DNA of 40,065 nt from Ramlibacter sp. (GTDB lineage: Bacteria > Pseudomonadota > Gammaproteobacteria > Burkholderiales > Burkholderiaceae_C): assembly GCA_028292245.1 (NCBI GenBank), contig JAQGMS010000143.1, positions 1 to 40,065 of the forward strand. Reading direction: 5' to 3'. The translations under genes and the position numbers were made by a program. The notes beneath the pieces are model-generated. The model was given only the letters and a program-made list of their open reading frames with translations, was not told the origin of the DNA and ran no database searches. This document shows positions 10,324 to 26,847 of this stretch, piece after piece; position 1 is the stretch's first letter, and each line of letters begins with the position of its first letter.

Positions 10324-10333
10324 GAGCCTGCTT

Positions 10334-10903: not shown

Positions 10904-10955
10904 GCAACGCGGGAAAGTGGGTCGTGGGATGATAGCGGGCAGAAACGGGAATTCG

Positions 10956-11588: not shown

Positions 11589-11600
11589 CCATCCGTCGAT

Positions 11601-13424
11601 TCAACGCGGCGTGTACTCGGGCACCTGCCCGCGCAGCCAGCGGCGCAGTTCGTCGTGCGCCGGTGCCGGCCCCGCATCGGCGATCCAGCGAACCACCGAC
11701 TCGATGTCGGGCAATTGTCCCGACGTCTTGGCCACCCTCAACTTCGGGTGCGGTGTCGGCTCGGTCGTTTCATCGTCCGCCAGCAGCTCCTCGAAAAGTT
11801 TTTCGCCCGGCCGCAGGCCCGTGTAGCTGATCGGGATTTCCTGCTCGGTCTTGCCCGACAGCCGGATCAGCATGCGCGCGAGTTCGACGATCTTCATCGG
11901 CTCGCCCATGTCCAGCACGAAGATCTGGCCCGAGCTTCCCATCAGCCCGGCCTGCAGCACCAGCTGCGCGGCCTCCGGAATGGTCATGAAGTAACGCACG
12001 ATCTCCGGATGGGTCACCGTCACCGGCCCGCCGCGCGCGATCTGCGCGGTGAAAAGCGGGACCACCGATCCGCTCGATCCCAACACGTTGCCGAAGCGCA
12101 CGGAGACATATTGCGTGCCGCTGTATTCGGCCGCGACACCCTGCACCATCAGCTCGGCAAGGCGCTTGCTGGAGCCCATCACGTTGGTCGGGTTTACGGC
12201 CTTGTCGGTGGAGATCATCACGAACCGCCGGGCACCGCACTCTCCTGCCACGCGCGCGGCGTTCAGCGTGCCCAGGACGTTGGTGCGCAACGCCTCGATC
12301 TCGTTGAGCTCCTCCATCAGCGGCACGTGCTTGTAGGCGGCAGCGTGGAACACCACCGCCGGCCTGTGCTTGAGCGCGATGGCGCGAAGCCGGTCCACCT
12401 CCCGCACATTCGCGGTGTAGTAGCTGCCATGCATCTGCGGATGGGTCTCGCGCATCTCCTGCTCGAGCTGGTAGACGCCGTATTCGGACACGTCCACGCA
12501 GACCAGCCGCGCGACCCCGAAACGCGCGGCCTGCCGGCACAACTCCGAGCCGATCGAGCCGCCCGCTCCGGTGACCAGTACGGTCTGGCCCGACAACAGT
12601 TCGGCCAGCCCCGCCTCATCGAGCTGCACCGCGGTGCGGCCGAGCAGGTCTTCGAGCTCGATCTTGCGCGGGCCCGCGCCCTCGGTCTTGAGCCATTCGT
12701 CGGGCCGCGGCATCGTCAGCAGTGTCAAGTGCGAACCCGCCGCGCTCATCAGCGCGGCGCGGCGTTCGGACGAGCCGGCCGGGCTCGCCACCAGCGCTGC
12801 GCTGGCATCGGCGGCCTCGCAGATATGCGCGATCTCCGCCGTCGGCCCGAGCACGCGCACATCCTGGATCGAGCGTCCGACTTCGGCGGCCAGGGGCGAC
12901 ACAATGCCGACCGGCTGCCACTGCTGCGAGCCCTTGAGCGCGCGCAAGGCGTCAGAAGCGTCCTGCAGCGATCCGACGATCACCAGGCGGCGGCCGCCCT
13001 GGCTCAACGTGCGCCGTTCGATGAACGTGCGCCAAGCGGCCCGGACGGCGCCCAGCATCACCAGGGCAATCATGGGCTGCAGCAGGAGCACCGATCGCGG
13101 AAACCCCGGCATGCGCTGCATCAGGATCGCCGCCGTGGTGAGCAAGCCACCGAGCATGATCCCCGTGGCCAGCTGCCGCAGTTCCGGCAGCCCGATATAA
13201 CTCCAGACCTGCCGATAGACCCGCGCCAGCGTGAGGCCGGCAGCGTAGGCCACCACGCACCAGGGGCTCGCCAACAGGGCCAGGTGGTCGAACTCTTCGG
13301 GAATGTCGAAGTTGAAGCGCAGCCAGAACGCGGCCCAGCCGGCCAGCAGCACCAGCGCCAAGTCGACCGCCAACAGGACCAGTGTGTTCCTAGGCAGCCG
13401 CACGCCGGTCCTCTGCCAATGCAA
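11601..13424 (-). CDS. Membrane-bound UDP-GlcNAc 4,6-dehydratase, PglF/WbpM/CapD family
   Basis: Predicted to convert UDP-GlcNAc to UDP-2-acetamido-4-keto-6-deoxy-glucose, the first step toward bacillosamine and legionaminic sugars. The protein is 607 residues, the long membrane form. Four hydrophobic segments lie in about the first 130 residues, then a CoA-binding-like Rossmann domain (about 143-240), then the catalytic SDR domain with GAGGSIG at 286-292. ISTDKA (404-409) and NVMGSSK (414-420) show Met in place of the SDR tyrosine, as is typical of this subfamily. It overlaps the aminotransferase by 35 bases; a GTG at 13403 is a possible alternative start. It is last in the sugar operon. The long form is usually retaining at C5 (family knowledge). 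The exact substrate is inferred. Confidence 0.88.
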   Translation of the reverse strand: MHWQRTGVRLPRNTLVLLAVDLALVLLAGWAAFWLRFNFDIPEEFDHLALLASPWCVVAYAAGLTLARVYRQVWSYIGLPELRQLATGIMLGGLLTTAAILMQRMPGFPRSVLLLQPMIALVMLGAVRAAWRTFIERRTLSQGGRRLVIVGSLQDASDALRALKGSQQWQPVGIVSPLAAEVGRSIQDVRVLGPTAEIAHICEAADASAALVASPAGSSERRAALMSAAGSHLTLLTMPRPDEWLKTEGAGPRKIELEDLLGRTAVQLDEAGLAELLSGQTVLVTGAGGSIGSELCRQAARFGVARLVCVDVSEYGVYQLEQEMRETHPQMHGSYYTANVREVDRLRAIALKHRPAVVFHAAAYKHVPLMEELNEIEALRTNVLGTLNAARVAGECGARRFVMISTDKAVNPTNVMGSSKRLAELMVQGVAAEYSGTQYVSVRFGNVLGSSGSVVPLFTAQIARGGPVTVTHPEIVRYFMTIPEAAQLVLQAGLMGSSGQIFVLDMGEPMKIVELARMLIRLSGKTEQEIPISYTGLRPGEKLFEELLADDETTEPTPHPKLRVAKTSGQLPDIESVVRWIADAGPAPAHDELRRWLRGQVPEYTPR

Positions 13425-14892
13425 GGGCGCGGCGCAACTGCTCGATCACGCGGGCCTGCTGGTCCGGTGTCAGATTGGAGCCCGAGGGCAGGCAGATGCC
13501 GGCTTCGAACAATCCCGCCGACACGTCGCCGCTTTCGTGCGCGAAATACGGCGCGCCGCGAAACAGCGGCTGCTGGTGCATCGGCTTCCAGACCGGCCGC
13601 GCTTCGATGGAGTGGCGCTCCAGCGCCCGGAGCACCAGGTCACGCCGCAGGCCGGCATCGCGGCCCGGCAAGGTGAAGCAAGTCAGCCAGCGGGTGGAGC
13701 GATAACCTTGCGGCTCGGGCATCCACTGCAATTGGGGCTGGTCGGCCAGCTCGGTGCGATAGGTCTCGAACACCTGGCGCCGCTGCGCCACCCGCTGCTC
13801 CAGCACCCGCAATTGGCCGCGGCCGATGCCGGCCAGCACATTGCTCATGCGGTAGTTGAAGCCGACCTCGGTGTGCTCGTAGTGGGGAGCCGGTTCGCGC
13901 GCCTGGGTCGCGAGCTTGCGCGCGCGCTCGACCACTGCCGGGTCATCGGCGACCAGCATGCCGCCGCCCGACGTCGTGATGATCTTGTTGCCGTTGAAGG
14001 AATAGATGCCGATGCGGCCAAAGCTGCCGCTGGCCCGTCCCTTGTAGCGCGCGCCCAGCGACTCGGCCGCGTCTTCCAGCACCGGGACGCCGTAGCGGTC
14101 GCAGATCGGAAGAATCGCGTCCATATCGGCGCTCTGGCCGTAGAGGTTGACCGGGATGACGCAGCGCGGCAGGCGCCCTTCCTTCTTCGCCCACTCCAGC
14201 GCGCGCTCCAGCGCGGCAGGCGACATGTTCCAGGTCTGCGGGTCCGAGTCGATGAACACCGGACGCGCGCCGCAATACAGGATCGGGTTGCAGCTGCCCA
14301 CGAAAGTCAGCGACGAGCAGAACACCGTGTCGCCCGGCTTCACGCCGAGCAGCAGCAGCGCCAGGTGGATCGCCGCCGTACCCGAGCTCACCGCGGCCGC
14401 GTGGCCCACACCGACGTGCGCCGCCAGCTCACGCTCGAAGCCGTCGACGTGCGGGCCGAGCGGGGCGATCCAGTTGGTGCGAAACGCATCTTCGACGAAC
14501 GCCGTTTCCTCTTCGCCCAGGTGCGGCGACGACAACCAGATCCGCTGCGAGAGTTCGCGCCGGAACATGACGTCCACCGGCCTGCCGGACGCATCGACCA
14601 CCGGCAGATGGTCGATCTGGTGTTCGTCCAGCAGCGCCATGCCGGCGGCAAACGTACCATCGGTGCCGATGGTGATCGGCGGCTGCTCGGGCAGTTCGCC
14701 AACCTGCGTGGACTCGCTCACATGACTGAGCGCGGCGCGCCGCAAGTCGCCGTCGGTGAGCGTGCGCCGCAGCCTGCCGTCGGGATGCAGCACCAGCAAC
14801 ACGCCCCGGCCGCTCTCGTTCAATGCCGCGAGCGCCTGCAGTAGCGTGCAGGCGGCTGGTACGCACAGCGCGTTGAATTCGTCCGCGGTCAC
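13390..14892 (-). CDS. CBS-domain / DegT-DnrJ aminotransferase fusion (PglE/LegC-like)
   Basis: A PLP-dependent sugar aminotransferase predicted to aminate the C4 keto group of the dehydratase product. The protein is 500 residues, about 115 longer than usual. Residues 1-115 look like a pair of CBS modules (RRTLTDGDLR; then HQIDHLPVVDASGRPVDVMF). The aminotransferase begins at about 118 with LSSPHLGEEE and NWIAPLGPHVDGFE, close to the PglE pattern. EDAAES (273-278) and the PLP lysine Lys303 in SFNGNKI are intact. The start is a GTG overlapping the previous stop (GTGA), with GGAG 6 bases upstream. CBS pairs in these pathways are better known fused to a nucleotidyltransferase (PtmE type), so this arrangement is unusual. 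The CBS ligand is unknown. Confidence 0.88.
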   Translation of the reverse strand: MTADEFNALCVPAACTLLQALAALNESGRGVLLVLHPDGRLRRTLTDGDLRRAALSHVSESTQVGELPEQPPITIGTDGTFAAGMALLDEHQIDHLPVVDASGRPVDVMFRRELSQRIWLSSPHLGEEETAFVEDAFRTNWIAPLGPHVDGFERELAAHVGVGHAAAVSSGTAAIHLALLLLGVKPGDTVFCSSLTFVGSCNPILYCGARPVFIDSDPQTWNMSPAALERALEWAKKEGRLPRCVIPVNLYGQSADMDAILPICDRYGVPVLEDAAESLGARYKGRASGSFGRIGIYSFNGNKIITTSGGGMLVADDPAVVERARKLATQAREPAPHYEHTEVGFNYRMSNVLAGIGRGQLRVLEQRVAQRRQVFETYRTELADQPQLQWMPEPQGYRSTRWLTCFTLPGRDAGLRRDLVLRALERHSIEARPVWKPMHQQPLFRGAPYFAHESGDVSAGLFEAGICLPSGSNLTPDQQARVIEQLRRALALAEDRRAAA

Positions 14893-15521
14893 TTCAATCT
14901 CCTGGCGGGAACACCCGCGTAGACGCCGGCCTCGGGCAGGTCTTCCACGACGACCGCCCCGGCCCCGATCACCACGTCGTCGCCGACGCGCAAGCCGGGC
15001 AGGATACCAGCGCCGCCGCCGACCAGCACGCGCCGGCCCACCTGCACGCCGCCGCCCAGCACAGCCAGCGGCGCAATGTGGGAGAAATCGCCCACGCTCA
15101 CGTCGTGATCGACGACAGCGCCATGGTTCACGATCACGGCGATGCCGAGGCTGGCGCCGGGCGCCACCACCGCCTGTGCCGCAACGAAGCAGCCGGGCGA
15201 TATCCGCGCGAGGGGCGAAATGCTGGCCTTGGGATGAACCACGCTCGCGAGCGCGCCGGGCGGCAATGCGCCGACTTCCCTAGCGCGCGCCGCAGCGTCG
15301 CCTATCGCGACGTGCACAGCGGCGGCTGAAGCGGCCATGCTCGCTGGCCCCAGCGCCACACCCGGCAGCAACTCACCGGTGCAGCGCGCGGGATCGCGAT
15401 CGGTCGCAGACACGCTTGGCCAGCGGCCCGCCGCAAGCGCCGCATCCGCAACCACGCGGCCATGGCCGCCTGCGCCAAAGATCAGCAAGCTGGACACGCC
15501 AGGAGAGCCCTCGGGTTTCAA
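14889..15521 (-). CDS. Sugar O/N-acyltransferase, NeuD/PglD family
   Basis: A left-handed beta-helix acetyltransferase predicted to acetylate the 4-amino sugar to UDP-2,4-diacetamido-2,4,6-trideoxyglucose (UDP-diNAc-bacillosamine). The protein is 210 residues. The N-terminal Rossmann-like part starts with LLIFGAGGHGRVV. The hexapeptide-repeat part contains NHGAVVDHDVSVGDFSHIAP, including the histidines used as general base in PglD. It ends with VYAGVPARRLK, typical of the family. The start is a TTG overlapping the NeuC stop (TTGA), with GGAAAAGG about 10 bases upstream; a GTG at 15497 is an alternative. The acyl donor (acetyl-CoA) is inferred. Confidence 0.88.
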   Translation of the reverse strand: MKPEGSPGVSSLLIFGAGGHGRVVADAALAAGRWPSVSATDRDPARCTGELLPGVALGPASMAASAAAVHVAIGDAAARAREVGALPPGALASVVHPKASISPLARISPGCFVAAQAVVAPGASLGIAVIVNHGAVVDHDVSVGDFSHIAPLAVLGGGVQVGRRVLVGGGAGILPGLRVGDDVVIGAGAVVVEDLPEAGVYAGVPARRLK

Positions 15522-16666
15522 TAGCTGTTTACCTTTTCCAGGAGCTGCGGGCCGGCGGGCAGCGTCGCCAGCAACCCGGCGATGCGCTCGCCGGCCCCGC
15601 CCTCGCCCCAGAGATTGTCACACGGCCACCGGCCATGTCCCAGCGCGGTTCGCAGGCCCGCCTCGATGGCGCCGGCTTCGGCGGCCACGTCGATCACGTT
15701 GGCATTGTGTTCGCGCAGCCGCTGGCGGTCGCCGACGTTCACCACCGGCGTGCCGAAGGTCGCCGCCTCGATGATGCCGGACGAGGAGTTGCCGGCCAGC
15801 ACGTCGCAGTGGCGCAGCGCCGCAGCGAACAGCGGCCGTGGAACATGGCTGATGCGCAGTGATCCAGCCGGCAGCGGTGTTTCATCGAGAGCGGCCATGA
15901 TTTCCAGAGAACCGGCGTCAGCATTCGGCTCCAGCCAGACCACCGGCAAACCAACGTCTCGCACGGCCTGCAACAGCGCCTGGGTCTGCGCACGCGCCTG
16001 CCCCGCCTGTTGGACCACCGGATGGAACACCGCCAGGATGAAGCGTGCGCCGCCGGCGAGACCCAGTCCGCGCAGGCATTCCTCGCGATCCATCGCGCCC
16101 AGCGCCGACAACCCGTCCAGGCCCGGCGCACCGACGACGAAGATACGGCCTTCGTCCTCGCCCATCCGACGCAGGCGTTCCTTCGAACCCGCCGTGGCGA
16201 CCAGGTGGTAGCTGGCGAGCTTGCTGATGGCGTGGCGCACCGGCTCGTCAACGGTACCGGAGCGCTCGCCGCCGTGGATGTGGACGCAAGGCACACCCAC
16301 ATGAAGCGCCGCAATGGCGCCGGCCAGCATCTCGCCGCGATCGCCGAGCAGCAGCAGGAAATCCGGCTTCTCACGCTGCAGCAGTTCGGTCATGCCGCGC
16401 AGGCAATCGGCGATGCCCAGCGCCATGCTCGCGCCCGAGCGCGTGCTCATGTCCATCGCGATCTCGGCGCAGATCGGCAAGCCGCTGGCGCGCACTTCCT
16501 GCGCCGTGTTGCCGTGCGCCGGGCTCAGGTGCATACCGGTGACCGCGACTTGAACCGCCAGCCTCGGTGTCGACGCGATCCGCTTGAGCGTACTTTCCAT
16601 CAGGCCCCAATCGGCCCGGGTACCGGTGAGGTAGATCACTCGCCGGGAAGGTGCGGCCGTGCTCAT
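15518..16666 (-). CDS. Hydrolysing UDP-sugar 2-epimerase, NeuC/LegG family
   Basis: Predicted to epimerise C2 and release UDP, giving 2,4-diacetamido-2,4,6-trideoxymannose (or ManNAc if it uses UDP-GlcNAc). The protein is 382 residues from the ATG at 16666. GTRADWGLM (about 15-23) is the UDP-binding start. GDRGEMLAGAIAA, HIHGGERSGTVDEPVRHAI and the C-terminal GNSSSGIIEA are hallmark motifs of hydrolysing epimerases. The ATGA overlap with neuB fixes the start. Between NeuB and an acetyltransferase the LegG role is more likely than a sialic NeuC role, because the cluster makes the 4-amino-6-deoxy precursor. Substrate choice is inferred. Confidence 0.9.
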   Translation of the reverse strand: MSTAAPSRRVIYLTGTRADWGLMESTLKRIASTPRLAVQVAVTGMHLSPAHGNTAQEVRASGLPICAEIAMDMSTRSGASMALGIADCLRGMTELLQREKPDFLLLLGDRGEMLAGAIAALHVGVPCVHIHGGERSGTVDEPVRHAISKLASYHLVATAGSKERLRRMGEDEGRIFVVGAPGLDGLSALGAMDREECLRGLGLAGGARFILAVFHPVVQQAGQARAQTQALLQAVRDVGLPVVWLEPNADAGSLEIMAALDETPLPAGSLRISHVPRPLFAAALRHCDVLAGNSSSGIIEAATFGTPVVNVGDRQRLREHNANVIDVAAEAGAIEAGLRTALGHGRWPCDNLWGEGGAGERIAGLLATLPAGPQLLEKVNSY

Positions 16667-17691
16667 CGCGGCTCTCCGCCCAATTGGTCCCACTGCAAGA
16701 CCGTCCCCGCATCAATCGGAACCAGCGCGACACGGCCAATGACACGCGGCAATTCGCGCGGCGCGATACCGGTGGCGGGTCGGCGGCACACCAGCATTGC
16801 TTCGCTGATAGCAACGCCGGCGGGAATATCCACTGCCGCGGCCACGCTGCGCCGCGCCACCCGGGCCGTGTCGCGCTCCTGCGGCGTGGGCGCCTTGATG
16901 CCGTCGCCCAACATCGCAGCCACGCGCCGGATGCCGGTGACCATGCGGCCGAACTCGGCCGGCTCCAGCGATGCGGCGTGATCGGGTCCCGGCAAAGCCC
17001 GGTCCAGTGTCAGGTGCTTCTCGATCACCGTGGCGCCCAGGGCAACGGCGGCCAAGGGAGCTTCGATGCCCAAGCTGTGGTCCGAATAGCCGATGTCGAC
17101 CTTCAAGTCGCGCGCCATCGAACGCAGTGCGTTCAGGTTGAGCGCCTCGTCCGGCGCGGGATAGGCTGAAGTGCAATGCAACACCGTAACGCCATCCAGG
17201 TTACCGCGGGCACCGCCTATCCATTGCAGGGCCTCACCGATCTCCTCCATGGTCGCCATGCCGGTGGATACCAACAGGGGCAGCCGCGCGGCGGCGGCGC
17301 GCTCCACCAGGGCGCGATGCGTGAGCTCGCCCGAAGACAATTTGATGCGGCGCACTCCCAGCTCCACCAGCATGTCCACGGCGCCAACCGAAAAAGGCGT
17401 GGAGAAGAATTCGATGCCGATGCCGTCGCAATGCGCCTTGATGGCCGCGTGCTGTTGTTTCGACAACTCCAGCTTCTGCAGCATCGCGAACTGGTCGTGC
17501 TGGCCGGTCTGCCTTTGCTGGTAGTCCGCCGTCGGCGCGCCGGGCAAGACCAGGTCTTGCGCGCGGAAGGTCTGGAACTTCACCGCATCGGCGCCGGCGG
17601 CGCGCGCTGCATCGCACAGGCGCAGCGCCATCGACAGGTCACCGTTGTGGTTGACGCCGGCTTCGGCGATGACGAACACCGGCTCAACCAT
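16663..17691 (-). CDS. N-acetylneuraminate/legionaminate synthase, NeuB family
   Basis: Condenses phosphoenolpyruvate with an N-acyl-mannosamine-type hexose to form a nine-carbon nonulosonic acid. The protein is 342 residues. The TIM barrel starts with IAEAGVNHNGD, followed by STPF (97-100), KLSSGE (117-122), STGM (142-145), LHCTSAYPAP (171-180), GYSDHSLG and IEKHLTLDRALPGPDHAASL. Metal-ligand histidines are expected at His225 and His238. The last about 60 residues form an antifreeze-like SAF domain, which closes the active site of the dimer partner. It overlaps the CMP-sugar synthetase by 8 bases. Context favours a 5,7-diamino (legionaminic-type) product over sialic acid; the sequence alone does not decide this. 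Confidence 0.93.
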   Translation of the reverse strand: MVEPVFVIAEAGVNHNGDLSMALRLCDAARAAGADAVKFQTFRAQDLVLPGAPTADYQQRQTGQHDQFAMLQKLELSKQQHAAIKAHCDGIGIEFFSTPFSVGAVDMLVELGVRRIKLSSGELTHRALVERAAAARLPLLVSTGMATMEEIGEALQWIGGARGNLDGVTVLHCTSAYPAPDEALNLNALRSMARDLKVDIGYSDHSLGIEAPLAAVALGATVIEKHLTLDRALPGPDHAASLEPAEFGRMVTGIRRVAAMLGDGIKAPTPQERDTARVARRSVAAAVDIPAGVAISEAMLVCRRPATGIAPRELPRVIGRVALVPIDAGTVLQWDQLGGEPR

Positions 17692-18400
17692 TGCCTGCTC
17701 CTGTGGCCAGGTGACGCCCGAACAGCCACTGGGCGTGTTCGAAATCCTCCAGCGTGTCGATGTCGACGCACTTCCATCGTGGCATCACATAGGGCGCGAC
17801 TGTCACGCTCCACAAACCGTGGATCGCGGCGTGCGCCAACGCGGAGCGCTGCCAGACGTAGATCGAGCCGTTGAGCGCGTACACGGGCGGAACATCCTGG
17901 CGGCGCGCGGCACCATCGCCCTTCGACAGGTGAACGAGGCCGTCGCCGGCCGCCTCCACCAGGTTGAAATAAGGATTGTCCGCGGCCTCGCCGACGCTGA
18001 CCACCAATTGCGCATCGGGACGCGTACGCAGCGCTGCGGCGATGTCGGAACTCTCGCGCAGCGGCGAGGTCGGCTGCAGGTCGACGATGCGGCCGATCAG
18101 CTCGCCCTGTTGCTCCAGGTGCGACGCCAGATGTTCGATCACCGGCAATTTTCCAGCCTGGTCGGTTGCGAGTTCGGCCGGGCGCAGGTAAGGGACGATG
18201 GCGCCCGCGATGCGGGCTGCATCGGCGATCAGGGGATCGTCAGTGGAAACATAAACCGCGTCGATCTCGGGGCAACCCAGCGCGTGCGCGATGGTATGGG
18301 CGATCAATGGCTTGCCTGAGAACGGGCGGATGTTCTTTCCGGGCAGGCCCTTGCTGCCGCCGCGCGCGCAGATGGTCGCGATCGTGCGGGCGGTGTTCAT
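17684..18400 (-). CDS. CMP-nonulosonate synthetase (cytidylyltransferase), NeuA/LegF family
   Basis: Activates the nonulosonic acid with CTP to CMP-sugar, the donor for glycosyltransfer. The protein is 238 residues. CARGGSKGLPGKN (11-23) is the CTP-binding P-loop-like motif. VDLQPTSPLR (107-115) and VYALNGSIYVW are substrate-pocket motifs, and DIDTLEDFE near the C terminus supplies metal-binding aspartates. The frame is open about 75 codons upstream inside hisH, but the ATG at 18400 overlaps the hisH stop (ATGA) and directly precedes the motif. It has no phosphatase or acylesterase fusion, unlike some NeuA proteins. Confidence 0.91.
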   Translation of the reverse strand: MNTARTIATICARGGSKGLPGKNIRPFSGKPLIAHTIAHALGCPEIDAVYVSTDDPLIADAARIAGAIVPYLRPAELATDQAGKLPVIEHLASHLEQQGELIGRIVDLQPTSPLRESSDIAAALRTRPDAQLVVSVGEAADNPYFNLVEAAGDGLVHLSKGDGAARRQDVPPVYALNGSIYVWQRSALAHAAIHGLWSVTVAPYVMPRWKCVDIDTLEDFEHAQWLFGRHLATGAGNG

Positions 18401-19035
18401 GAGCCGAGGAATCGCCGGAGCACGCTCAGGCCCGGTTCCGCGCTGCGCTCCGGATGGAACTGGCAACCGTACAGGTTGTCGCGGTGGACTGCCGCGCAGA
18501 TCGGGACCCCGTCGTAGTCCACATGCGCCAGACGCACGCCGTCCTGCGCCGGCTCGGCCGCGAACGAATGAACGAAATAGACGCGGTCCAGCGGCCGGAC
18601 GTCCGCCAGGACGGTCTCCTGCCACGGCGCATCGGGCTGGAGGGGCCGCCAGCCGATATGTGGAATGCGATGCGGCGCGCCGTCCGCGCCGGTGGCGGGG
18701 ATGGCGCGCACCCGCCCGGCCAGCAAACCCAGCCCGGCGTGCTCGCCCATCTCCTCGCTGGCTTCGAACATCACCTGCATGCCCACGCAGATTCCGAGAA
18801 ACGGACGGCCGGTCTGCGCGAACCGCTTGACCAGGTCGTCGAAACCGCGCGCGCGCAGTTCGGCCATGCCGTCGCCGAAAGCACCGACGCCGGGGAGCAC
18901 CAACCGCTGCGCCTCCACATCACCGGCCGAAGCCTTCTGCACGACTTTCACCGACGCGCCGCAATGCTCGAGCGCGCGCAGCACGTTCAACTGGTTGCCG
19001 ATGCCGTAATCCAGGACCGTGACGGGAATGCTCAC
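18397..19035 (-). CDS. hisH: HisH-like glutaminase subunit for sugar amidination
   Basis: A class I glutamine amidotransferase of the HisH type that releases ammonia from glutamine. The protein is 212 residues. The triad is intact: Cys83 in GICVGMQ, His194 and Glu196 in QFHPERS. The start is a GTG overlapping the hisF stop. It lies beside hisF and a WbpG-like amidotransferase in a sugar locus rather than in a his operon, as for the HisH2/HisF2/WbpG trio known in Pseudomonas LPS. I infer it feeds that enzyme and is a paralogue of histidine-pathway HisH. The loop usually written HMGWN reads HIGWR here. Confidence 0.88.
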   Translation of the reverse strand: MSIPVTVLDYGIGNQLNVLRALEHCGASVKVVQKASAGDVEAQRLVLPGVGAFGDGMAELRARGFDDLVKRFAQTGRPFLGICVGMQVMFEASEEMGEHAGLGLLAGRVRAIPATGADGAPHRIPHIGWRPLQPDAPWQETVLADVRPLDRVYFVHSFAAEPAQDGVRLAHVDYDGVPICAAVHRDNLYGCQFHPERSAEPGLSVLRRFLGS

Positions 19036-19808: not shown

Positions 19809-19818
19809 CGCTAGCGGG

Positions 19819-20991
19819 TCATGTTTCCCAGACGGGATGGCGCAGCTTCCACTGCGCGCCTTCGCGCTTCCAGATGTGGTCGCCGCGCCAGCTGTCGATC
19901 ACCGCGTGGAAATCTTCCTCGCTGATCTCGCAGTAATCCAGGAAGTCCCGGAAGTAGCGCTGAGGGAATTCGCCGTCGTAGCGGCGCACCAGGGCCATGC
20001 CCTCTTCGCGCGTGATCTTGTGATCGCGAATCTCGTGAGCGGTGTCGGATGTAGTGCGGCCGATGCCGAACTTGATGTAGGCCAGGTAGTAGTGATAGCC
20101 ATCGATGCGGTCGTCGAGGCTGGCGTACTTGGAATAGGTGCCTTCGGACCGCTCGGTGTTCGGCGCGAACCCGGTGTGCTCCACGCAATAGTAGAAATTC
20201 TCCTGCGGGTCCCAGAACTTGTAGTAGCCCAGGAAGTGGATCTCGGTCCGGTTCTCCATGATGCGGTTGTAGGGCGGCGCCATGAACGGGTACAGGTCCC
20301 CCAAGGAGACGCCATGCTCGGCCCAGAATTCCGGGGGCAGTCCCGAGAAATAGTGCTTGTCGTGGTCGGCGATGTCGCGCGTCGGCTTGAACGCGTTCTT
20401 CATGTCGCCGCCATATTCCACCTCGCCGTTCTCGCCGTACATGATGAGCTGTACGTCATGCTTCACGGCCATGTGCAGGGGGTAGTTCGTCTGGCCGTAG
20501 ATGAACGGCTGGAACGGGTCGCCCAGGTGCGCAAACGAAAGCTGCGTGAGCTTGCGCGTCACGATCGGGTTGGGAGTGCCCAGCACATGGTTGAAGCCCG
20601 ACTGGATGAAGGAATCGAGGTTGCGCCGGCCGATCTCGGTGGCCAGCAGCGGCGCCCAGGTGACGCACAGCGGATTCATGCCGTAGCGGTGCTTGAGCTG
20701 ATGGGCGACAAAACTGCCGTCCTTGCCGCCGCTGCAAGGCACGATCACGTCGTAGCCACCGTCGCTCTTGCGGTGCTGGTCGCACAGTTCGCGCAACTCG
20801 CGCTCGCGCGCATCCCAGTCGACTTTCTCGCGCTTGTACACCGCGTAATGGCAAGCCGCGCAAATGCCGTTCTCGTCGAAGGTGATGCGCGGCCGCTGGT
20901 TGGAGACCGTGCACAGCTTGCAGAACTTCACTTCGGCGGGCAGCTTGTACAACTGCGCCACATCCTTGCGCTGGATCGACAAAAAACTCAT
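19819..20991 (-). CDS. N-acetyl sugar amidotransferase, WbpG/PseA family
   Basis: An ATP-PPi-type ligase predicted to adenylate an acetamido group of a sugar and replace it with ammonia from HisH/HisF, giving an acetamidino group. The protein is 390 residues. CKLC (24-27) and CAAC (44-47) form a probable zinc site near the N terminus. The PP-loop CSGGKDGS sits at about 86-93. Conserved blocks include YGENGEVEYGG and WDPQENFYYCVEHTGF. It is 1 base behind the GT-B gene and 10 ahead of hisF. Family precedent: PseA/PtmG on flagellin sugars and WbpG on LPS sugars. Which sugar and which position is modified here cannot be read from sequence. Confidence 0.9.
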   Translation of the reverse strand: MSFLSIQRKDVAQLYKLPAEVKFCKLCTVSNQRPRITFDENGICAACHYAVYKREKVDWDARERELRELCDQHRKSDGGYDVIVPCSGGKDGSFVAHQLKHRYGMNPLCVTWAPLLATEIGRRNLDSFIQSGFNHVLGTPNPIVTRKLTQLSFAHLGDPFQPFIYGQTNYPLHMAVKHDVQLIMYGENGEVEYGGDMKNAFKPTRDIADHDKHYFSGLPPEFWAEHGVSLGDLYPFMAPPYNRIMENRTEIHFLGYYKFWDPQENFYYCVEHTGFAPNTERSEGTYSKYASLDDRIDGYHYYLAYIKFGIGRTTSDTAHEIRDHKITREEGMALVRRYDGEFPQRYFRDFLDYCEISEEDFHAVIDSWRGDHIWKREGAQWKLRHPVWET

Positions 20992-20992
20992 C

Positions 20993-22225
20993 TCATAGTT
21001 CCTTCAACACTGCCAATACGGCCTTCGCGGCACCTTTGCTTTCCCGGTCCGTCTGGGCGTGCTCTTCCCGGGTTGCGGCACCCGCCGCCAGGCAGCCGTC
21101 CAGCACACCAGCCAGCTCGCCGGGGGAATGGCACGCCGTTGCCATGCCGAATCGGGCAAGGGGCACCGATTCATCAAAGAGCGAACCCAGAACCTGCACC
21201 ACCGGGCGTCCCGCGATGTAGGCCTCGACACCGACGGTCGAATTCATGGTCACCAGCGCGTCGCAGGCATGCAGCAACTGGTGCAGCTCGAATTGTCGCC
21301 CATCCCATCGTACGTTGGGAACCGGCAGCGGCACGGGCTCGGCCTCGCTGGGGTGCCTGCGCACCACCAGCAGGCGGTCGTTTGCCGCGGCAGCCCATTG
21401 CAGCAATTCCTGCTGGATCTGTCCGGGCAGCGCCGGATTGCCGGTGCGGCCCGGCACGGAAGGGTGGGTCGCGGGCTCGGGCTGCGAAGCCCACACCACG
21501 ACATTCCTGCCGCCCCAACCCTGTGTTTCGCGCAGCTCTTGCCCGCTTGTCGCCATGTCAGGGTCACGCAACGCGTCGAAAGCCGGGTTGCCGGTCACGA
21601 CGATCTCTTCGGGCCGGCGGCCGGCGGCAACCAGGCGGGCGCGCACTGCCTCGTTCAGGACGCACACCCGGTCGGCGTAACCATCGCGGCCGATCCACGC
21701 CACCTCGTCGACCGCGAACAGGTCGACGATGCAGGCCGAGGGGACGCCCCGCGCATGGGCCGCGAGGATGGCCGCCTTCTCGGCACGTGGTGAGTTGGTC
21801 GCCACCACCAGCGCCGGCTTCATCCGGCCAATGATGCGCTCGAGCACACCCTGCGGCTCGAAGCACTGCCGCCCCTCCTGCTCGTAACGGCGCTTCGCCT
21901 CGGGGGGGCCGTACCGCGCTTCCAGGTCCGCATAGGACAGACCCAGGTATGCAGCGGTCTCTCGCCCATCGACCGGGATACTGGCGAGGCCGGCAGCCAG
22001 TTGCCTGCCCTTTTCCAAAGCCTGATCGTCGCCCGGCTCGACGAAGTCCGCGAAACCGACCGGCTCGAAACCTTCCTGGCGCGCAGCGGCGGCGGCCGTG
22101 GTGAGGGCCAGGATGACGGGTTCAGCCAGGCCGCGTTCACGCGCGAGCCGTGCCACGGGCAGGAGCATCCTGATGTGGCCGCCCCCGTATGCCACGAACA
22201 GCCAGACCGGAGGTTTACCGCTCAA
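20993..22225 (-). CDS. GT-B-fold glycosyltransferase/epimerase-like protein, unknown specificity
   Basis: I do not recognise the exact family. The protein is 410 residues from a TTG at 22225, which overlaps asnB by 11 bases and has GGGAG about 7 bases upstream. The open frame extends further into asnB, but that part is antisense-like noise. The N terminus (VWLFVAYGGGHIRMLLPVAR) looks like the first Rossmann strand and glycine loop of a GT-B protein. TGNPAFDAL (211-219) and MNSTVGVEAYIAGRPVVQVL near the C terminus resemble nucleotide-sugar pockets of UDP-GlcNAc 2-epimerases and capsule/teichoic-type transferases. It is the only plausible soluble glycosyltransferase in the cluster, so it may transfer the CMP-nonulosonate or another sugar. 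Function inferred from fold and context only. Confidence 0.65.
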   Translation of the reverse strand: MSGKPPVWLFVAYGGGHIRMLLPVARLARERGLAEPVILALTTAAAAARQEGFEPVGFADFVEPGDDQALEKGRQLAAGLASIPVDGRETAAYLGLSYADLEARYGPPEAKRRYEQEGRQCFEPQGVLERIIGRMKPALVVATNSPRAEKAAILAAHARGVPSACIVDLFAVDEVAWIGRDGYADRVCVLNEAVRARLVAAGRRPEEIVVTGNPAFDALRDPDMATSGQELRETQGWGGRNVVVWASQPEPATHPSVPGRTGNPALPGQIQQELLQWAAAANDRLLVVRRHPSEAEPVPLPVPNVRWDGRQFELHQLLHACDALVTMNSTVGVEAYIAGRPVVQVLGSLFDESVPLARFGMATACHSPGELAGVLDGCLAAGAATREEHAQTDRESKGAAKAVLAVLKEL

Positions 22226-24005
22226 GGGTGCGCTCCCACAACGCCAATGCCGCGAGCGCCCGCAGTTCGCGCGTGTGGTTGGCCGTGCCGTCACGGTGGC
22301 TGGACAACATGGCTTCGATCGCTTCGGGCCGCAACAGCCGCTGCAACAGTTCGCTGCCCTCGAGCGTCTGCTTGAGCCAGGGATAGCTCGATGTGCGGAA
22401 CCATTCACCCACCGGGACGGTGAACATCTGCTTCTTGCGGTACGCCAGGTCGGCGCCAATCAAGGGCACCACCGCCTTCTTGTACCAATGCTTCTTGTCG
22501 CCGCCTTGCAGTTTGGTCTCTCCGCGCGAGCGGAAAGCGAATTCCATCATTCGCCAATCGAGAAACGGGGTGCGCGCCTCGATCGACACCGCCATGCCCA
22601 TGCGGTCGGGCTTGACCAGGTTGTTGCCGGACAGGAGCAATTGCATGTCCAGGTACAGCGCCTGGTTGAGCCGGTCGAAGTGCTGCGATTCGTCGAACCA
22701 CGGCTTGGCCGCGACAGTGAAACTGTCCAATCCCTGCAGCTGCGACGCGACGCCCGGCTGGTACAGCGCGTTCTTCGCCTGCGGCGTGAACAGGGAGATC
22801 GAATCGAAGTAGCCGCGCTGAAAGCTTCCCGCATCCAGCCCCTGGGCGCCGGGCCGGTCGAAGAAATCGGCGTACTTCTCGTAGCCGGCGAAAAGTTCAT
22901 CCCCACCGTCGCCGGTGAGCACCACCTTGACGTGCCTGGCGGCCAGTTCGCTCACGCGCAGCGTCGGCATGAACGACGCGTCGCCGTGCGGCTGGTCCAG
23001 GTGGTACAGCACATGAGGCCAGCGATCGAGCATGTTCAGCTCCGCGATCTCGCTGGTGTGCTCGCAACCGAAGCGCCGCGCCGCTTCGGCGGCAAAAGCC
23101 GATTCGTCGAAGCGCGGATCGGAAAATCCGATGCAGAAGGTCTTGACGGGCCGGTCCACATGCCGCGCCATCAGCCCCACGATGGTGCTGGAGTCGACGC
23201 CGCCCGAAAGAAACGCGCCCCAGGGGACGTCCGCACGCAGCCGGATGCGGGTGGCGTCATCCAGGATGGACATGAATTCCTGGGCCCAGTCGCCGAACGC
23301 GAAGTCCCGCTCCCGCTGCTCGGCCAGGTTCCACCAGCGATGTGTCTCCACGCCGTTGCGCGTGAACTTCATCCAGGTTCCGGGCATCACGTGGCGGATG
23401 CCACGCCAGATGGTCCACGGCGCCGGGATGTAGTTGAACGTGAGGTAGTGATGGACGGCCTCGAGATCGATGCCCTCGAAACCACGGTCGGTGCCGGTCC
23501 ACGGCAGCATCGCCTTGATCTCGGAGGCGAAGATGGCGCGAGTCCCGTCGTCGGCAACATACAGAGGCTTGACGCCGATGCGGTCGCGCACCAGGTACAT
23601 GGCGTCTTGGCGCACATCGTCGATGGCGATGGCGAACATACCGTTGAGCTTGCTGAGGAACGAAATGCCTTCGCGCTCGTACAGGCGCAGGATGACCTCG
23701 GTGTCCGAAGCCGTCCGCAGATGAACGCCCTGCTGGCGCAACTGCGCGGCGAGCTCGACGTAGTTGAAGATCTCGCCGTTCTGCACCACGGCCACCTGGC
23801 CGTCGTCCGAGACAAAGGGCTGGTGCCCACCGCCGATGTCGATGATCGACAGGCGCCGGTTGCCCAGTGCGACGCCGCGCTGCGGCTGGTTCCAGATGCC
23901 TTCGTCATCCGGCCCGCGGTGCGCGAGCTTTTGGGCCATGGCAGGCAAGGCATCGGCCGGCAACGCCCGGCGCTGCCGATCCCAATAGCCGAAGATTCCG
24001 CACAT
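22215..24005 (-). CDS. asnB: Asparagine synthase-like glutamine-dependent amidotransferase
   Basis: The protein is 596 residues with the two AsnB domains. The N-terminal glutaminase has the Cys2 nucleophile (MCGIFGYWD) and the glutamine pocket motifs RLSIIDI and NGEIFNY. The synthetase domain has the ATP loop SGGVDSS at 267-273. Family reaction: aspartate + glutamine + ATP to asparagine. In surface-sugar loci, AsnB homologues such as Pseudomonas WbpS instead amidate sugar carboxylates, and the position here between a phosphoglycosyl transferase and a GT-B protein favours such a role. Sequence alone cannot separate the two. It abuts the transferase stop with no gap and overlaps the next gene by 11 bases. 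Confidence 0.87.
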   Translation of the reverse strand: MCGIFGYWDRQRRALPADALPAMAQKLAHRGPDDEGIWNQPQRGVALGNRRLSIIDIGGGHQPFVSDDGQVAVVQNGEIFNYVELAAQLRQQGVHLRTASDTEVILRLYEREGISFLSKLNGMFAIAIDDVRQDAMYLVRDRIGVKPLYVADDGTRAIFASEIKAMLPWTGTDRGFEGIDLEAVHHYLTFNYIPAPWTIWRGIRHVMPGTWMKFTRNGVETHRWWNLAEQRERDFAFGDWAQEFMSILDDATRIRLRADVPWGAFLSGGVDSSTIVGLMARHVDRPVKTFCIGFSDPRFDESAFAAEAARRFGCEHTSEIAELNMLDRWPHVLYHLDQPHGDASFMPTLRVSELAARHVKVVLTGDGGDELFAGYEKYADFFDRPGAQGLDAGSFQRGYFDSISLFTPQAKNALYQPGVASQLQGLDSFTVAAKPWFDESQHFDRLNQALYLDMQLLLSGNNLVKPDRMGMAVSIEARTPFLDWRMMEFAFRSRGETKLQGGDKKHWYKKAVVPLIGADLAYRKKQMFTVPVGEWFRTSSYPWLKQTLEGSELLQRLLRPEAIEAMLSSHRDGTANHTRELRALAALALWERTLER

Positions 24006-24560
24006 CTAGTTGCTTCCCTTGCCGGTCAACCGGCCCAGCGTCCATCCCAGGATTCTGAGGTCCAGCCAAAGGCTGTGTTCGCGGGCGTAGCGCAGGTCCA
24101 GTTCCAGGCGCTGGGCCTCGGTGGCTTCCGAGCGCAATCGGGCCTGCGCCAGACCGGTGATGCCGGGGCGGACGCTGCAACGCCGGGCCCAATCGGAATC
24201 GCTGTAGAGCGCGCGCTGCGCCGGGACGTCGGGCCGCGGGCCGACCAGGCTCATGTCGCCCTTGAGGACGTTGAGCAATTGCGGCAGCTCGTCGATGCTG
24301 GTGCGCCGCAGGAAGCGGCCGGCCCGCGTGATGCGGGGGTCGTCGCTGGCGGTGTGCCATGCGCCGATCGAGGCGGCGTCCTTGACCATGCTGCGGAACT
24401 TGTACATCGCGAATTCGCGGCCGCCCAGGCCCAGCCGCGTCTGGCGAAACAGGATGGGCCTGCCGCTTTCGAACGCGATGGCCGCGGCGGCCGCCACGAT
24501 CAACGGGGAAAGCAGCGCCAGCGCGAGCAGGGACAGCAGCACGTCGAGCATCCTTTTCAT
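24006..24560 (-). CDS. Initiating phosphoglycosyl transferase, PglC/WcaJ C-terminal-type
   Basis: A monotopic membrane enzyme that transfers a sugar phosphate from a UDP-sugar to undecaprenyl phosphate, starting a lipid-linked glycan. The protein is 184 residues, the minimal PglC-like size. One hydrophobic re-entrant segment (about 5-28) contains the helix-breaking SP of LLSPLI. FRSM follows, and the catalytic Asp90-Glu91 dyad lies in SIDELPQLLNVLKGDMSL, ahead of VGPRP and the RPGITGLAQ loop. The start overlaps the aldolase stop (ATGA). Because the operon makes UDP-diNAc-bacillosamine, the substrate of Campylobacter PglC, that sugar is the likely substrate (inference). Confidence 0.9.
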   Translation of the reverse strand: MKRMLDVLLSLLALALLSPLIVAAAAAIAFESGRPILFRQTRLGLGGREFAMYKFRSMVKDAASIGAWHTASDDPRITRAGRFLRRTSIDELPQLLNVLKGDMSLVGPRPDVPAQRALYSDSDWARRCSVRPGITGLAQARLRSEATEAQRLELDLRYAREHSLWLDLRILGWTLGRLTGKGSN

Positions 24561-25363
24561 GCGCCAGGACCCGCACCGGCCGCGATGCGCTCGATGGTGG
24601 CGGCGACGCGCTTTGCGTCGGCGTCGACCTGCGCCGGCGACCGCTGCGCCAGTTCCCGTTCCGCTGCGCGCAGCTTGGCCACTTCGGTTTCGAACGGATC
24701 GCTTTCCCCGCCGCGATGGAACGTGCGCGAAAGAATGACCGAGCCCGATCCCAGCCGCAAGTGTTCGGCCAGCACGTCGCGACCGGGCAACTGGCCTTCG
24801 TCCACGCGCGCGATGCCGCCGAACCCGAAGCGCAAGCCCTGGAGCTGGGCGGCCCGTGCCACGCGATCCACCAGCCCCAACGCCAGCGGCTCGAACATGA
24901 AACGGCAGCCCAGCGACAGGTGCAGGTCGTTCAACCCGACATAGACCTCGCTCAGGCCCGGCGTGGCGATCCATTCCTCCAGGCACTCCAGCGCGCCGGC
25001 CGTTTCCAGTAGCGGCACAATTGGAGCGCGCCCGGCGACCAAGGCCGCGAATTCGCGCAGCTCATGCGCCTGGGTGAACATCGGCAGCATCAACAGGTCG
25101 GCGCCCTGGGCCAGCGCGCCGTCGACCTCCGCGGGCGTGCCCGGATTGAGCGGGTTCACGCGCACCATCAACGGCGAACGCTGCAGCGCCTGTTTCACGC
25201 GGCCCACATCTTCGAGTGCGTGGACGCTGATGAACGTGTTGCGGCCGGCTTGGCGCTCGGCCTTGCCCAACCGCTCGAGGTCGACGAACAGGCGGAAGCC
25301 GCCGAGTGCGTCGCAGCGGCGCGCGAACGCCGGGTCATTCGTGATCTGGATCAGTTCAAGCAT
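24557..25363 (-). CDS. HpcH/HpaI aldolase / citrate lyase-like family protein
   Basis: The protein is 268 residues with a phosphoenolpyruvate/pyruvate TIM-barrel pattern. Probable active-site residues are Arg68 (MVRVNP), metal-ligand Glu120 (PLLETAG) and Asp146 (VGLNDL), matching the HpaI arrangement. Known members cleave or form C-C bonds between pyruvate or a CoA ester and an aldehyde. A role in a nonulosonic acid locus is not one I can name; it might make or trim an unusual sugar or acyl substituent. The ATG at 25363 is 14 bases after the flippase stop, and a much longer open frame upstream is antisense noise. The last 60 residues are Ala/Arg-rich and helical. Confidence 0.75.
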   Translation of the reverse strand: MLELIQITNDPAFARRCDALGGFRLFVDLERLGKAERQAGRNTFISVHALEDVGRVKQALQRSPLMVRVNPLNPGTPAEVDGALAQGADLLMLPMFTQAHELREFAALVAGRAPIVPLLETAGALECLEEWIATPGLSEVYVGLNDLHLSLGCRFMFEPLALGLVDRVARAAQLQGLRFGFGGIARVDEGQLPGRDVLAEHLRLGSGSVILSRTFHRGGESDPFETEVAKLRAAERELAQRSPAQVDADAKRVAATIERIAAGAGPGA

Positions 25364-25377
25364 GGGGGAGCCTGTAA

Positions 25378-26847
25378 TTATCGCGCCAGGGCCGCACGCA
25401 GGTCGTCGCTTCCCCACCAGGTCAGGAGCATCACCGCCAAGCCTGCGAAGACGGCGGCGGCCAACCCGGGCCACAAGCCAGGGACCGGCGGCAACCAGGC
25501 CTGCGCAGCCACGCCGGCAAGGGCCGACAGGCAGGCCATCGATATCGCCATCGAGCGCCAGGGCAGCCAATCGCGCGCATCCGGTCCGAGCGCGATGAGC
25601 ACGATGATCGCGACCGCGCCAAGCAGCAAGTTCAGCAGAATCATCAAAGCCGCGCCGTCGGGTGCGCCCCAGGCCGCGTACGACAGCAACGCCGCCAACG
25701 CCAGGCCGTAAGCCGTCACGGCGATTTTCATCCGGCCGCGAGCCGCCAGCACCGTGAGGGCCACTGCGATCAGCGCTTGCGGCAGCAAGCCCCATGCGCC
25801 GAGGGCGCCCCAGTGCGCCACGCGAGCCAGACCTTGTGCGTCCATCCGGCCCCAGCCGAACAGCAATTGGGCAATCGCCGGCGCTCCCACCACCAGTGCC
25901 GCGGCTGAGGCGCAGGCGAGCGTCCAAGCCAGGGCCATAGCACCGCGCACCGCGCTTTTCGTGACAAGCGGATCGCCGCCCGCGAGCGCCTTGGCGATGG
26001 CGGGAAACGCCAATGTCGCCACCAGCTGGATCGCAAGGATCAAGGGCAACTCCACCAGTTTCCAGGCGTAATTGAAGGTGGCGAGCGCGCCCTCCCCCGC
26101 CTGCGAGGCGATCGAGCGCGCCGCGAACGGCAGCGCCAACGGCAGGCCGGCCGACAGGACGGCCCACAGCCAGACGGGAACCGATGGCAATGCCGGCCCC
26201 GGCGCGACGCCGTCGTCCCGTGCGATGGCTTGCGCCGGCGTTCGCCAGCGCAACCAGCCCAGGCGCAACAGCATCGCGGTCAGCAGCCCCGCACCCAGCC
26301 ATGGCATCGCGGTGCCGGTACCCACCCGGCTGCCTGCCCATGCGATGGCGGCGATGAGAACGGCATTGACCACCAGGTTGGCCGAATACATGCCGGCGAA
26401 ATCGTGCTCGTGCTGCAGCCGGGTGGTCCACAAGCCGGCGAGCAAAGCGGCTGGAAGCGCCAACGCGCTCCAGACCATGGCATTGGCCGCGGCCGGCACC
26501 ATGGAGCGGGAGAGTCCCCCGGCGAGCCATTCCACCGCCGGTTCACGCAGCAGGATCAACAACAGGGCCAGCGCTGCACCCGCAGCCAGCAGACCCGTTG
26601 CCACCTTGCGCTGGGTCGCCGCAACCTGCGCGGGCGACTGCCCGGCCCAGGCCGGCACCAGCACATAGGCCAGGGCGCCGCTGGCGAGCACGCCGGCCAG
26701 CCAATCGGGCAGCGTCAACATCAGGACCACCACGTCGGCCAAGCCCGAGGTACCGAAAGCCGCGGCCTGGGCCGATTCCCGCATCAGCCCGAAGACCCGG
26801 CTGGCCAGCAGCAAGGCCAGGGACAGGGCACCGGCTTTCAAAAACAT
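25378..26847 (-). CDS. MurJ-like lipid-linked oligosaccharide flippase (MOP superfamily)
   Basis: The protein is 489 residues with about 13-14 hydrophobic segments. The start [17 protein letters not shown] followed by an aspartate copies the MurJ pattern: Arg23 and Asp38 align with E. coli MurJ Arg24 and Asp39. The MurJ double arginine (PNLLRR, residues 52-53) is replaced by PDWLAG (Ala51-Gly52), and the protein is shorter than typical MurJ. As first gene of the sugar operon it may flip the lipid-linked glycan made here rather than lipid II. A canonical murJ elsewhere in the genome would support this. A role as the only MurJ cannot be excluded. It is divergent from lysS, with 92 bases between the starts. 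Confidence 0.75.

Follow-up and report, generated by a model that had tools for sequence, protein, structure and literature searches.

A fourteen-gene Ramlibacter locus predicted to make and assemble a short surface glycan with an acetamidino-bearing legionaminic-type sugar

Gene content of the locus

The window analysed here is a DNA stretch of 40,065 nucleotides (contig JAQGMS010000143.1, C53 in our numbering) from a betaproteobacterial metagenome-assembled genome (MAG) of Ramlibacter sp. (GCA_028292245.1; 5.81 Mb, 558 contigs, 85.6% complete). Fourteen consecutive genes lie at positions 11601–26847, all on the minus strand, as described in an original prediction made from the sequence alone. 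Judging from its gene content, the locus probably directs the synthesis and assembly of a short surface glycan with an acetamidino-bearing legionaminic-type sugar. The product appears to be a rare bacterial cousin of sialic acid that bears an amidine group. The locus is flanked on one side by accD and a LON-domain gene (lonD), and on the other side by a class II aminoacyl-tRNA synthetase gene, which we take to be lysS, and by nagZ, a beta-N-acetylhexosaminidase gene. Thirteen of the 14 genes show Pfam matches with an E-value of 1e-7 or better, and all 14 are found in identical order in 12 genomes of the same genus (in locus L034 a contig end cuts the MurJ gene; L and G numbers denote our loci and genomes). 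The gene set is therefore far beyond chance.

The genes and their best profile matches are listed in Table 1. Matches were found for every dehydratase, aminotransferase, acyltransferase, NeuC, NeuB and cytidine monophosphate (CMP)-sugar synthetase gene that had been predicted (some under cut-offs). The predicted WbpG/PseA-type amidotransferase (WbuX in Table 1) with its own HisH and HisF, the AsnB-like enzyme, the aldolase and the flippase were recovered in the same way. Two points of the earlier description needed correction. Several frames had been opened upstream of the gene, and the likely starts are about 18400 for NeuA, about 22225 for the glycosyltransferase (GT), 24560 for PglC, 25363 for the aldolase and about 16666 for NeuC. 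The N-terminal CBS domain of the aminotransferase (PF00571, E 4e-8) had been overlooked. The aminotransferase, LegC, scores 343 bits against PF01041 and 372 bits against TIGR04181, under the cut-off of 420. The MurJ-like protein scores 88 bits against the MurJ equivalog model, under the cut-off of 235.55, and may still flip a lipid-linked sugar. AsnB has an N-terminal MCGI and also SGGVDSS; WbuX carries an SGGKDGS loop at residue 87, and its gene is adjoined by those for the HisH glutaminase and the HisF paralogue (18397–19808).

The possibility that the HisF and HisH of the locus are the histidine enzymes of the cell was rejected. A HisF over the cut-off was found in every one of the eight relatives searched; six of them have the locus, and there the locus HisF is present besides the separate over-cut-off HisF. 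No further HisF-like match above 92 bits was found in the source MAG, which is incomplete, and its housekeeping hisF probably lies in the missing part. In the left flank of the window, a FimV-type protein is encoded at 2811–5819, upstream of truA.

Table 1. Features of the locus in transcription order, with the evidence for each (pLDDT, predicted local distance difference test score)
Feature	Coordinates	Strand	Evidence
MurJ-like flippase, left end of locus	25378..26847	-	PF03023 65 bits; TIGR01695 murJ 88 bits, under cut-off 235.55
HpcH/HpaI-type aldolase-like enzyme	24557..25363	-	PF03328 32.9 bits (cut-off 25)
Short Bac_transf/PglC-type polyprenyl-phosphate sugar-1-phosphate transferase, initiating enzyme	24006..24560	-	PF02397 220 bits
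AsnB-like glutamine-dependent amidotransferase	22215..24005	-	PF00733, PF13537, TIGR01536 428 bits (cut-off 267)
GT-B-fold glycosyltransferase, candidate nonulosonate transferase, lineage B of exchanged pair	20993..22225	-	model pLDDT 88.8
WbuX-type N-acetyl-sugar amidotransferase, lineage B	19819..20991	-	TIGR03573 356 bits (cut-off 203)
Exchanged two-gene segment GT-WbuX	19819..22225	-	DNA identity drop vs L040
HisF paralogue (WbuZ/AglZ-like)	19032..19808	-	TIGR03572 272 bits (cut-off 300), TIGR00735 265 bits, both under cut-off
HisH-type glutaminase	18397..19035	-	TIGR01855 189 bits (cut-off 105); GICVG and HPE motifs
NeuA/PseF-type CMP-nonulosonate synthetase	17684..18400	-	PF02348 80 bits; TIGR03584 143 bits, under cut-off 206
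NeuB/LegI-type nonulosonate synthase	16663..17691	-	PF03102 and SAF; TIGR03569 410 bits (cut-off 400)
NeuC/LegG-type hydrolysing 2-epimerase	15518..16666	-	TIGR03568 358 bits (cut-off 236)
NeuD/PglD-type N-acetyltransferase	14889..15521	-	TIGR03570 182 bits (cut-off 161), PF17836
CBS:LegC fusion, PglE-type aminotransferase with N-terminal CBS pair	13390..14892	-	PF00571 residues 64-108, PF01041 residues 125-487
CBS part (about 118 aa) joined to LegC	14539..14892	-	PF00571; KpsF-like match residues 14-105
PglF/CapD-type membrane 4,6-dehydratase, right end of locus	11601..13424	-	PF02719 371 bits

Predicted pathway and identity of the sugar

The dehydratase, PglE-type aminotransferase, NeuD, NeuC, NeuB and NeuA genes of a Legionella-type cluster are all present. 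PglF, CBS:LegC and NeuD would convert uridine diphosphate (UDP)-N-acetylglucosamine (UDP-GlcNAc) to UDP-diacetylbacillosamine, from which NeuC, NeuB and NeuA would make a CMP-5,7-diacetamido-nonulosonate. WbuX, with HisH-derived ammonia delivered via HisF, would then turn one N-acetyl group into an acetamidino group; the HisF paralogue is the probable ammonia-channel partner of WbuX.

The CMP-5,7-diamino nonulosonate with an acetamidino group that had been predicted is supported by legionellal gene order and by the grouping of NeuB ("legionellal" refers to the family of a MAG titled Legionellaceae). The order WbuX-HisF-HisH-NeuA-NeuB-NeuC-NeuD-LegC is complete in two legionellal genomes (G338 and G317; L207 and L208). 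A third (G335; L209) has the same order with no NeuA match, and the remaining WbuX-bearing genomes of the family (L210–L212) are arranged differently. In the lipopolysaccharide (LPS) locus of L. pneumophila, open reading frames (ORFs) 21–25 and 28 have been named, and a UDP-diacetylbacillosamine route to CMP-Leg5Ac7Ac and CMP-Leg5Am7Ac has been described (PMC3766260). The order in the window fits ORF 28 to 21 of that locus. ORF 26 and 27, which are not named in section 6 of the same paper, would by position be HisH and HisF.

The NeuB phylogeny, proposed earlier as a check, placed the window enzyme among the legionellal and mostly CBS:LegC-type enzymes, in a clade of 17 rows (Shimodaira–Hasegawa-like approximate likelihood ratio test, SH-aLRT, 93; branch not starred in this quick tree). 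Two rows that carry KIGSGE, a motif of N. meningitidis NeuB, fall outside this clade; they are presumed to be sialic-type from the motif, with no proven sialic-acid synthase among the rows of the tree. NeuB has Gly at the position where pseudaminic synthases have Phe. The best solved match of NeuC is the hydrolysing GDP/UDP-diacetylbacillosamine 2-epimerase (5xvs/5zlr, E 2e-50; GDP, guanosine diphosphate), slightly ahead of the UDP-GlcNAc 2-epimerase/N-acetylmannosamine kinase 4zht (E 1e-47). LegC best matches the aminotransferase structures 1o61 and 4ztc, which we take to be PglE.

Some points weigh against this identification. The NCBIfam models passed by NeuB and NeuC carry sialic-acid names, and stereochemistry is not readable from sequence. 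A residue rule for NeuB position 184 (PMC7371886), whose numbering could not be mapped with certainty, would not fit the window as we understand it. The names of the two models, which refer to N-acetylneuraminate, would suit a locus for plain sialic acid (N-acetylneuraminic acid, Neu5Ac) in which the amidotransferase targets another sugar. We consider this highly improbable: Neu5Ac has no need of the PglF-PglE-PglD-type trio of the operon, NeuB clusters with the legionellal enzymes and the gene order is that of a legionaminic cluster. Sialic acid as the product was rejected on the NeuB tree and motif and on the solved-structure matches of NeuC and LegC. The best-supported reading of the sequence is the one first proposed, a legionaminic-type CMP-sugar that carries an acetamidino group and is made by a UDP route.

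We infer the product, the amidine position, the linkage and the roles of AsnB and the aldolase from the genes. PMC7099621 describes a C7 acetamidino group put on pseudaminic acid by PseA and also names Leg5Am7Ac, so that both acetamidino positions are known in nonulosonates; Pse5Am7Ac is written instead in the abstract of PMC3068675. No paper linking Ramlibacter with nonulosonic acids was found in the open-licence literature.

The CBS:LegC fusion and PtmE

PtmE is the CBS-nucleotidyltransferase of the GDP route. The earlier proposal of a UDP route is supported in that PtmE is found neither among the 14 genes nor in the window and that LegC is fused to CBS, as in loci without PtmE. A tblastn search with two PtmE nucleotidyltransferase domains, which covered the window only, gave no match, and profile scans found no NTP_transferase match among the 14 genes.

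The CBS pair on LegC and its near-exclusion with PtmE go beyond the first reading. Among 131 loci, some of them short and some showing the same genome twice, the fusion and a separate PtmE are nearly exclusive. Fused CBS:LegC is found in 36 loci without PtmE and in one with it (L086), and unfused LegC in 51 loci with PtmE and 10 without. No LegC is in view in the other 33, 15 of which have PtmE. In the two separate CBS proteins scanned (L078 and L257), CBS is joined to a nucleotidyltransferase (NTP_transferase) in a PtmE-like manner. The CBS part of the fusion may give feedback control. No paper joining legionaminic acid and the CBS domain was found in the open-licence literature.

Interior exchange between near-constant ends

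We compared 34 related loci: the window, loci from 32 of the 44 other same-genus genomes with an aldolase match, and L052 (Ramlibacter sp. ACE_PRO44), which the housekeeping tree described below places among the loci of the genus. The last 20 were added mostly for having no WbuX match, so class frequencies in the whole set are meaningless. In the 60 genomes of the genus, an aldolase match is found in 45 and a WbuX match at E 0.001 or better in 26 (two weak). NeuB, aldolase, PglC, AsnB and GT are each present in 34 of 34 loci and MurJ in 33. PglF is present in 33 (not in view in L275) and is at least 69% identical to that of the window in 31 of the 33 other loci.

Between these ends the interior consists of about nine exchangeable types, all with NeuB. 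Ten classes were sorted by eye from gene content and identities, with 1A and 1B kept apart, and five of them hold one locus each. They include acetamidino types (15 loci with WbuX), a PtmE type (L257) and one with a pseudaminic NeuB motif (L270). The gene finder mis-called many frames in these GC-rich loci, and the GT-to-NeuA genes of classes 2–4 are not resolved. L032, L044 and L045 are acetamidino-class variants in which NeuA is divergent (48–50%) and the HisH–NeuA or NeuA–NeuB interval contains additional DNA.

The GT is 66% identical within a class vs 42% between classes (0 of 2000 permutations). The identities of NeuA, NeuB and NeuC also track class (0 of 2000 each). NeuA, NeuB and NeuC helped to define the classes, and WbuX and GT the split into 1A and 1B, so these results are not fully independent of the sorting. 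Class has no visible effect on the flanking lonD and lysS (899 and 792 of 2000 permutations). On a housekeeping tree built from lysS, nagZ and lonD, class requires 19 changes, against a possible minimum of 9 and a mean of 20.7 for shuffled classes; 28 of 200 shuffles gave a count as low. Two pairs of sister genomes, L040/L272 and L034/L274, differ in class, both on starred branches.

Several results count against a simple picture of constant ends and a free interior. There is no aldolase match in 15 of the 60 genomes of the genus, and L264 has no constant PglF, only a remote one (32%). A small class effect of 1.5–2.3 points is seen in MurJ, aldolase, PglC and AsnB (5 to 31 of 2000 permutations), and the effect is larger in PglF (4.7 points, 10 of 2000) and LegC (10.4 points, 0 of 2000). 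The ends thus retain some dependence on class. The five loci of class 3 group together on the housekeeping tree, where they need 2 changes (1 of 500 shuffles as low). That tree is weakly resolved: 8 of its 31 inner branches are starred, and 11 of its 34 rows cover under half of the columns. We propose that the ends of the locus are near-constant in the genus and that the middle, the sugar-making genes with a matching transferase, may be exchanged among species like a serotype locus. One genome with no aldolase match, G045, holds an acetamidino cluster (L043), where the only matches are to PglC, the genes from LegC to WbuX and a remote PglF.

Joint exchange of GT and WbuX

The transferase and amidotransferase of the window variant arrived together from another lineage. 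All genes of the window but two are 73–93% identical to those of L040; the two are GT (47%) and WbuX (44%). DNA identity in 200-base steps is 78–88% before about 22300, 45–72% down to about 19700 and 78–86% onward to 18301. The breaks fall at the AsnB/GT and WbuX/HisF borders, which argues that GT and WbuX were exchanged together. Same-genus identities give two groups (the lonD row of this comparison is distorted by a 2-residue lonD fragment). WbuX is 86% identical between the window and L031, 85–95% among the 11 others and 44–48% across the two groups; the corresponding GT values are 64%, 59–75% and 46–53%. The window pair is thus from another lineage (B) than that found in most relatives of its type. 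Lineage B is also present in L052. On the housekeeping tree, 3 changes are needed to explain the three loci of this lineage, at least 2 of them forced by starred branches.

A WbuX tree of 101 rows was built from 166 extracted sequences, of which 21 weak or partial ones were dropped and the other 145 thinned by hand. In this tree lineage A, with 30 rows, is the neighbour of lineage B, with 49. Campylobacterales WbuX are outer rows only, not assignable to PseA or PtmG as no NeuB matches lie beside them (L213–L215). A match was found in 10 of 150 genomes of the Vibrionaceae family; A. salmonicida is not usable as an anchor for the acetamidino position. In the best 80 of 114 loci found with the lineage-B query, a second WbuX-family match is present in 13; nine of these are remote (24–32%) and four are 41–45% identical. 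The four loci with two WbuX more than 40% identical to that of the window (L071, L084, L124 and L130) each have one copy of lineage A and one of lineage B.

Because the dual clusters hold one of each and GT moved jointly with WbuX, the two lineages probably differ in function. It is quite possible that both catalyse the same reaction and that the GT-WbuX exchange is neutral or selected through GT only. Both lineages are found in one genus beside similar HisF, HisH, NeuA and NeuB genes, and both occur beside CBS:LegC and beside PtmE-type genes (A with a separate CBS protein in L048, L049 and L210; B with the fusion in L031, L052 and L056). Two copies of lineage A lie about 17 kb apart in the legionellal genome G338, which counts against non-redundancy of the lineages. 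A shared reaction, however, does not require one copy of each lineage in four of four dual clusters, and the joint exchange of GT and WbuX also speaks against it. For the probable difference in function, a C5/C7 split between lineages A and B is a guess. Extended to the whole locus, it would have the legionellal lineage A amidinate the C5 nitrogen and B the C7 nitrogen of the same CMP-nonulosonate, so that dual clusters give a doubly amidinated sugar; GT would be exchanged with WbuX because it reads that position, and AsnB and the aldolase would build an amide or acyl group on the initiating sugar, within a five-gene assembly unit also found in Vibrio, Cohnella and Devosia. We regard this combined scheme as tentative and rather unlikely to hold in full.

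As side observations, the L071, L084, L124 and L130 clusters possibly make doubly amidinated nonulosonates. L129, whose record bears the title Candidatus Woesearchaeota archaeon, combines a lineage-B WbuX with matches to HisF, HisH, NeuA, NeuB and NeuC. L063, in a record titled Gimesia, has a lineage-B WbuX, HisF, HisH and an AsnB 49% identical, with no NeuB match within its 9.4 kb.

AsnB, the aldolase and the assembly module

The MurJ, aldolase, PglC, AsnB and GT block is also found in Vibrio bivalvicida (L070) and two Cohnella (L078 and L095), beside PtmE-type clusters. Devosia indica (L056) has the same five genes in another order, with a broken GT frame, beside a CBS:LegC cluster. At E 1e-20 the aldolase is found in 5 of 398 Pseudomonadota genomes (including that of the window) and in 3 of 198 genomes of the order of Cohnella (Cohnella included). 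H48, R68, E120 and D146 of the aldolase are invariant in 10 aligned sequences; R68, E120 and D146 are presumably the arginine and acidic metal ligands that are catalytic in HpaI. The aldolase model has a pLDDT of 89.8, and a fold search placed it in the phosphoenolpyruvate/pyruvate-type TIM-barrel superfamily, with pyruvate kinases on top.

Four remote aldolase loci (L252, L253, L254 and L255) have no nonulosonate match within about 20 kb. L254 holds PglF, PglC, aldolase, a 2-hydroxyacid dehydrogenase and an AsnB-domain protein, and L252 a class IV aminotransferase, PglC, a pyridoxal phosphate (PLP) decarboxylase and aldolase; neither PglC nor AsnB was seen in L253 and L255. As these loci have no nonulosonate matches and two keep PglC, the aldolase seems, on a thin basis, to be tied to the initiating sugar and not to the nonulosonate. 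AsnB and the aldolase would belong to the constant part of the locus that deals with the initiating sugar, to which they may add an amide or acyl group. AsnB was also considered as the acetamidino enzyme and rejected, as it is present in 34 of 34 loci and WbuX in 15. A search of the open-licence literature gave no relevant paper on AsnB, HpcH and a sugar transferase together, and none on the module.

Transferase and destination of the glycan

PglC would load the first sugar onto polyprenyl phosphate, the single GT would add the nonulosonate, the MurJ-like protein would flip the lipid-linked glycan, and PglL or an O-antigen ligase encoded elsewhere would attach it. The GT has only sub-threshold sequence matches (TIGR04396, NF046086), and its model shows a GT-B/epimerase fold. 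Weak matches to KpsC, 5fa0 and its variants 8csb–8cse (E 0.025–0.039), which we take to have 3-deoxy-D-manno-oct-2-ulosonic acid (Kdo) activity, stand behind a 2-epimerase at 0.012. Two observations weigh against a nonulosonate transferase. The nearest solved folds, which single out no donor, are UDP-GlcNAc 2-epimerases. The HP motif His, which belongs to CMP-sialic-type transferases and is present in the window (RHPSE), is replaced by Arg in 12 of the 34 GTs: all 11 of class 1A (L032–L041 and L046) and L257.

Profile scans found no polymerase, ligase, oligosaccharyltransferase or PtmE-type nucleotidyltransferase among the 14 genes. The earlier claim that a polymerase, ligase and oligosaccharyltransferase are missing thus stands for the locus, and the transferase may be a PglL on another contig. 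A scan of the genome gave six Wzy_C proteins over the cut-off. One of them is of the PglL type (PglL_A, Wzy_C and Wzy_C_2; contig C464, L224 at about 9917–11986, minus strand), and the other five have no PglL_A match. PglL homologues of 49–61% identity are present in five of six relatives (one Wzy_C region probed in each, two in G059).

With one GT and no polymerase in the locus and PglL in the genome, a short protein-linked glycan is favoured over LPS or capsule. It is possible, though somewhat improbable, that this is an O-antigen or capsule locus, with Wzy and WaaL proteins from elsewhere in the genome polymerising the sugar and either ligating it to lipid A or exporting it as polysaccharide. 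O- and K-antigen loci typically exchange their interior and keep their ends, five of the six Wzy_C proteins lack PglL_A, and the legionellal counterpart is an LPS locus. Against this, the 14 genes of the locus in the window include no Wzy-type match and only one GT, and a short unpolymerised unit is better suited to protein glycosylation.

Comparison with known systems

The L. pneumophila LPS locus and the legionellal genomes share with the window the CBS:LegC fusion and the lack of PtmE. In L. pneumophila the dehydratase lies outside the LPS locus (PMC3766260), whereas in the window it is the last gene. The WbuX of the window is of lineage B and those of G338, G317 and G335 are of lineage A. 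Unlike the window, legionellal stretches L206–L209 gave no MurJ, aldolase, PglC, AsnB or GT match.

Campylobacter-type legionaminic clusters with PtmE follow the GDP route. They have homologues of NeuA, NeuB, NeuC, NeuD, LegC and WbuX/HisF/HisH in common with the window, but PtmE (CBS and NTP_transferase) is present and LegC is unfused, the reverse of the window. A PtmE-like nucleotidyltransferase is found in 60 of the 79 lineage-B loci L052–L130. The PglL general O-glycosylation systems of Neisseria and Burkholderia also have a PglC-type initiator, PglF/PglE/PglD-type genes, a flippase and PglL elsewhere; unlike them, the window has a CMP-nonulosonate branch, an aldolase and AsnB. The Tannerella forsythia O-glycosylation cluster resembles it in having an AsnB-domain protein and a nonulosonate on the glycan, and PMC6120980 tentatively gives that protein the acetamidino step. 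From the gene distribution, such a role of AsnB in this genus is unlikely.

Implications

The enzymes of the locus are of known kinds; what is new is their arrangement, the fusion rule, the module exchange and the unexplained AsnB-aldolase module. The CBS:LegC vs PtmE rule gives a simple genome marker that may separate UDP- from GDP-type legionaminic pathways. The locus also makes it testable why AsnB and the aldolase travel with the initiating enzyme. One genus with one chromosomal site, near-constant assembly genes and about nine nonulosonate modules is a clean natural experiment. Within it, the exchange of GT and WbuX in an otherwise unchanged pathway makes it testable which enzyme sets the amidine position and which transferase reads which nonulosonate. 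That modules are exchanged frequently in an environmental genus suggests that phages or predators may select on the surface sugars.

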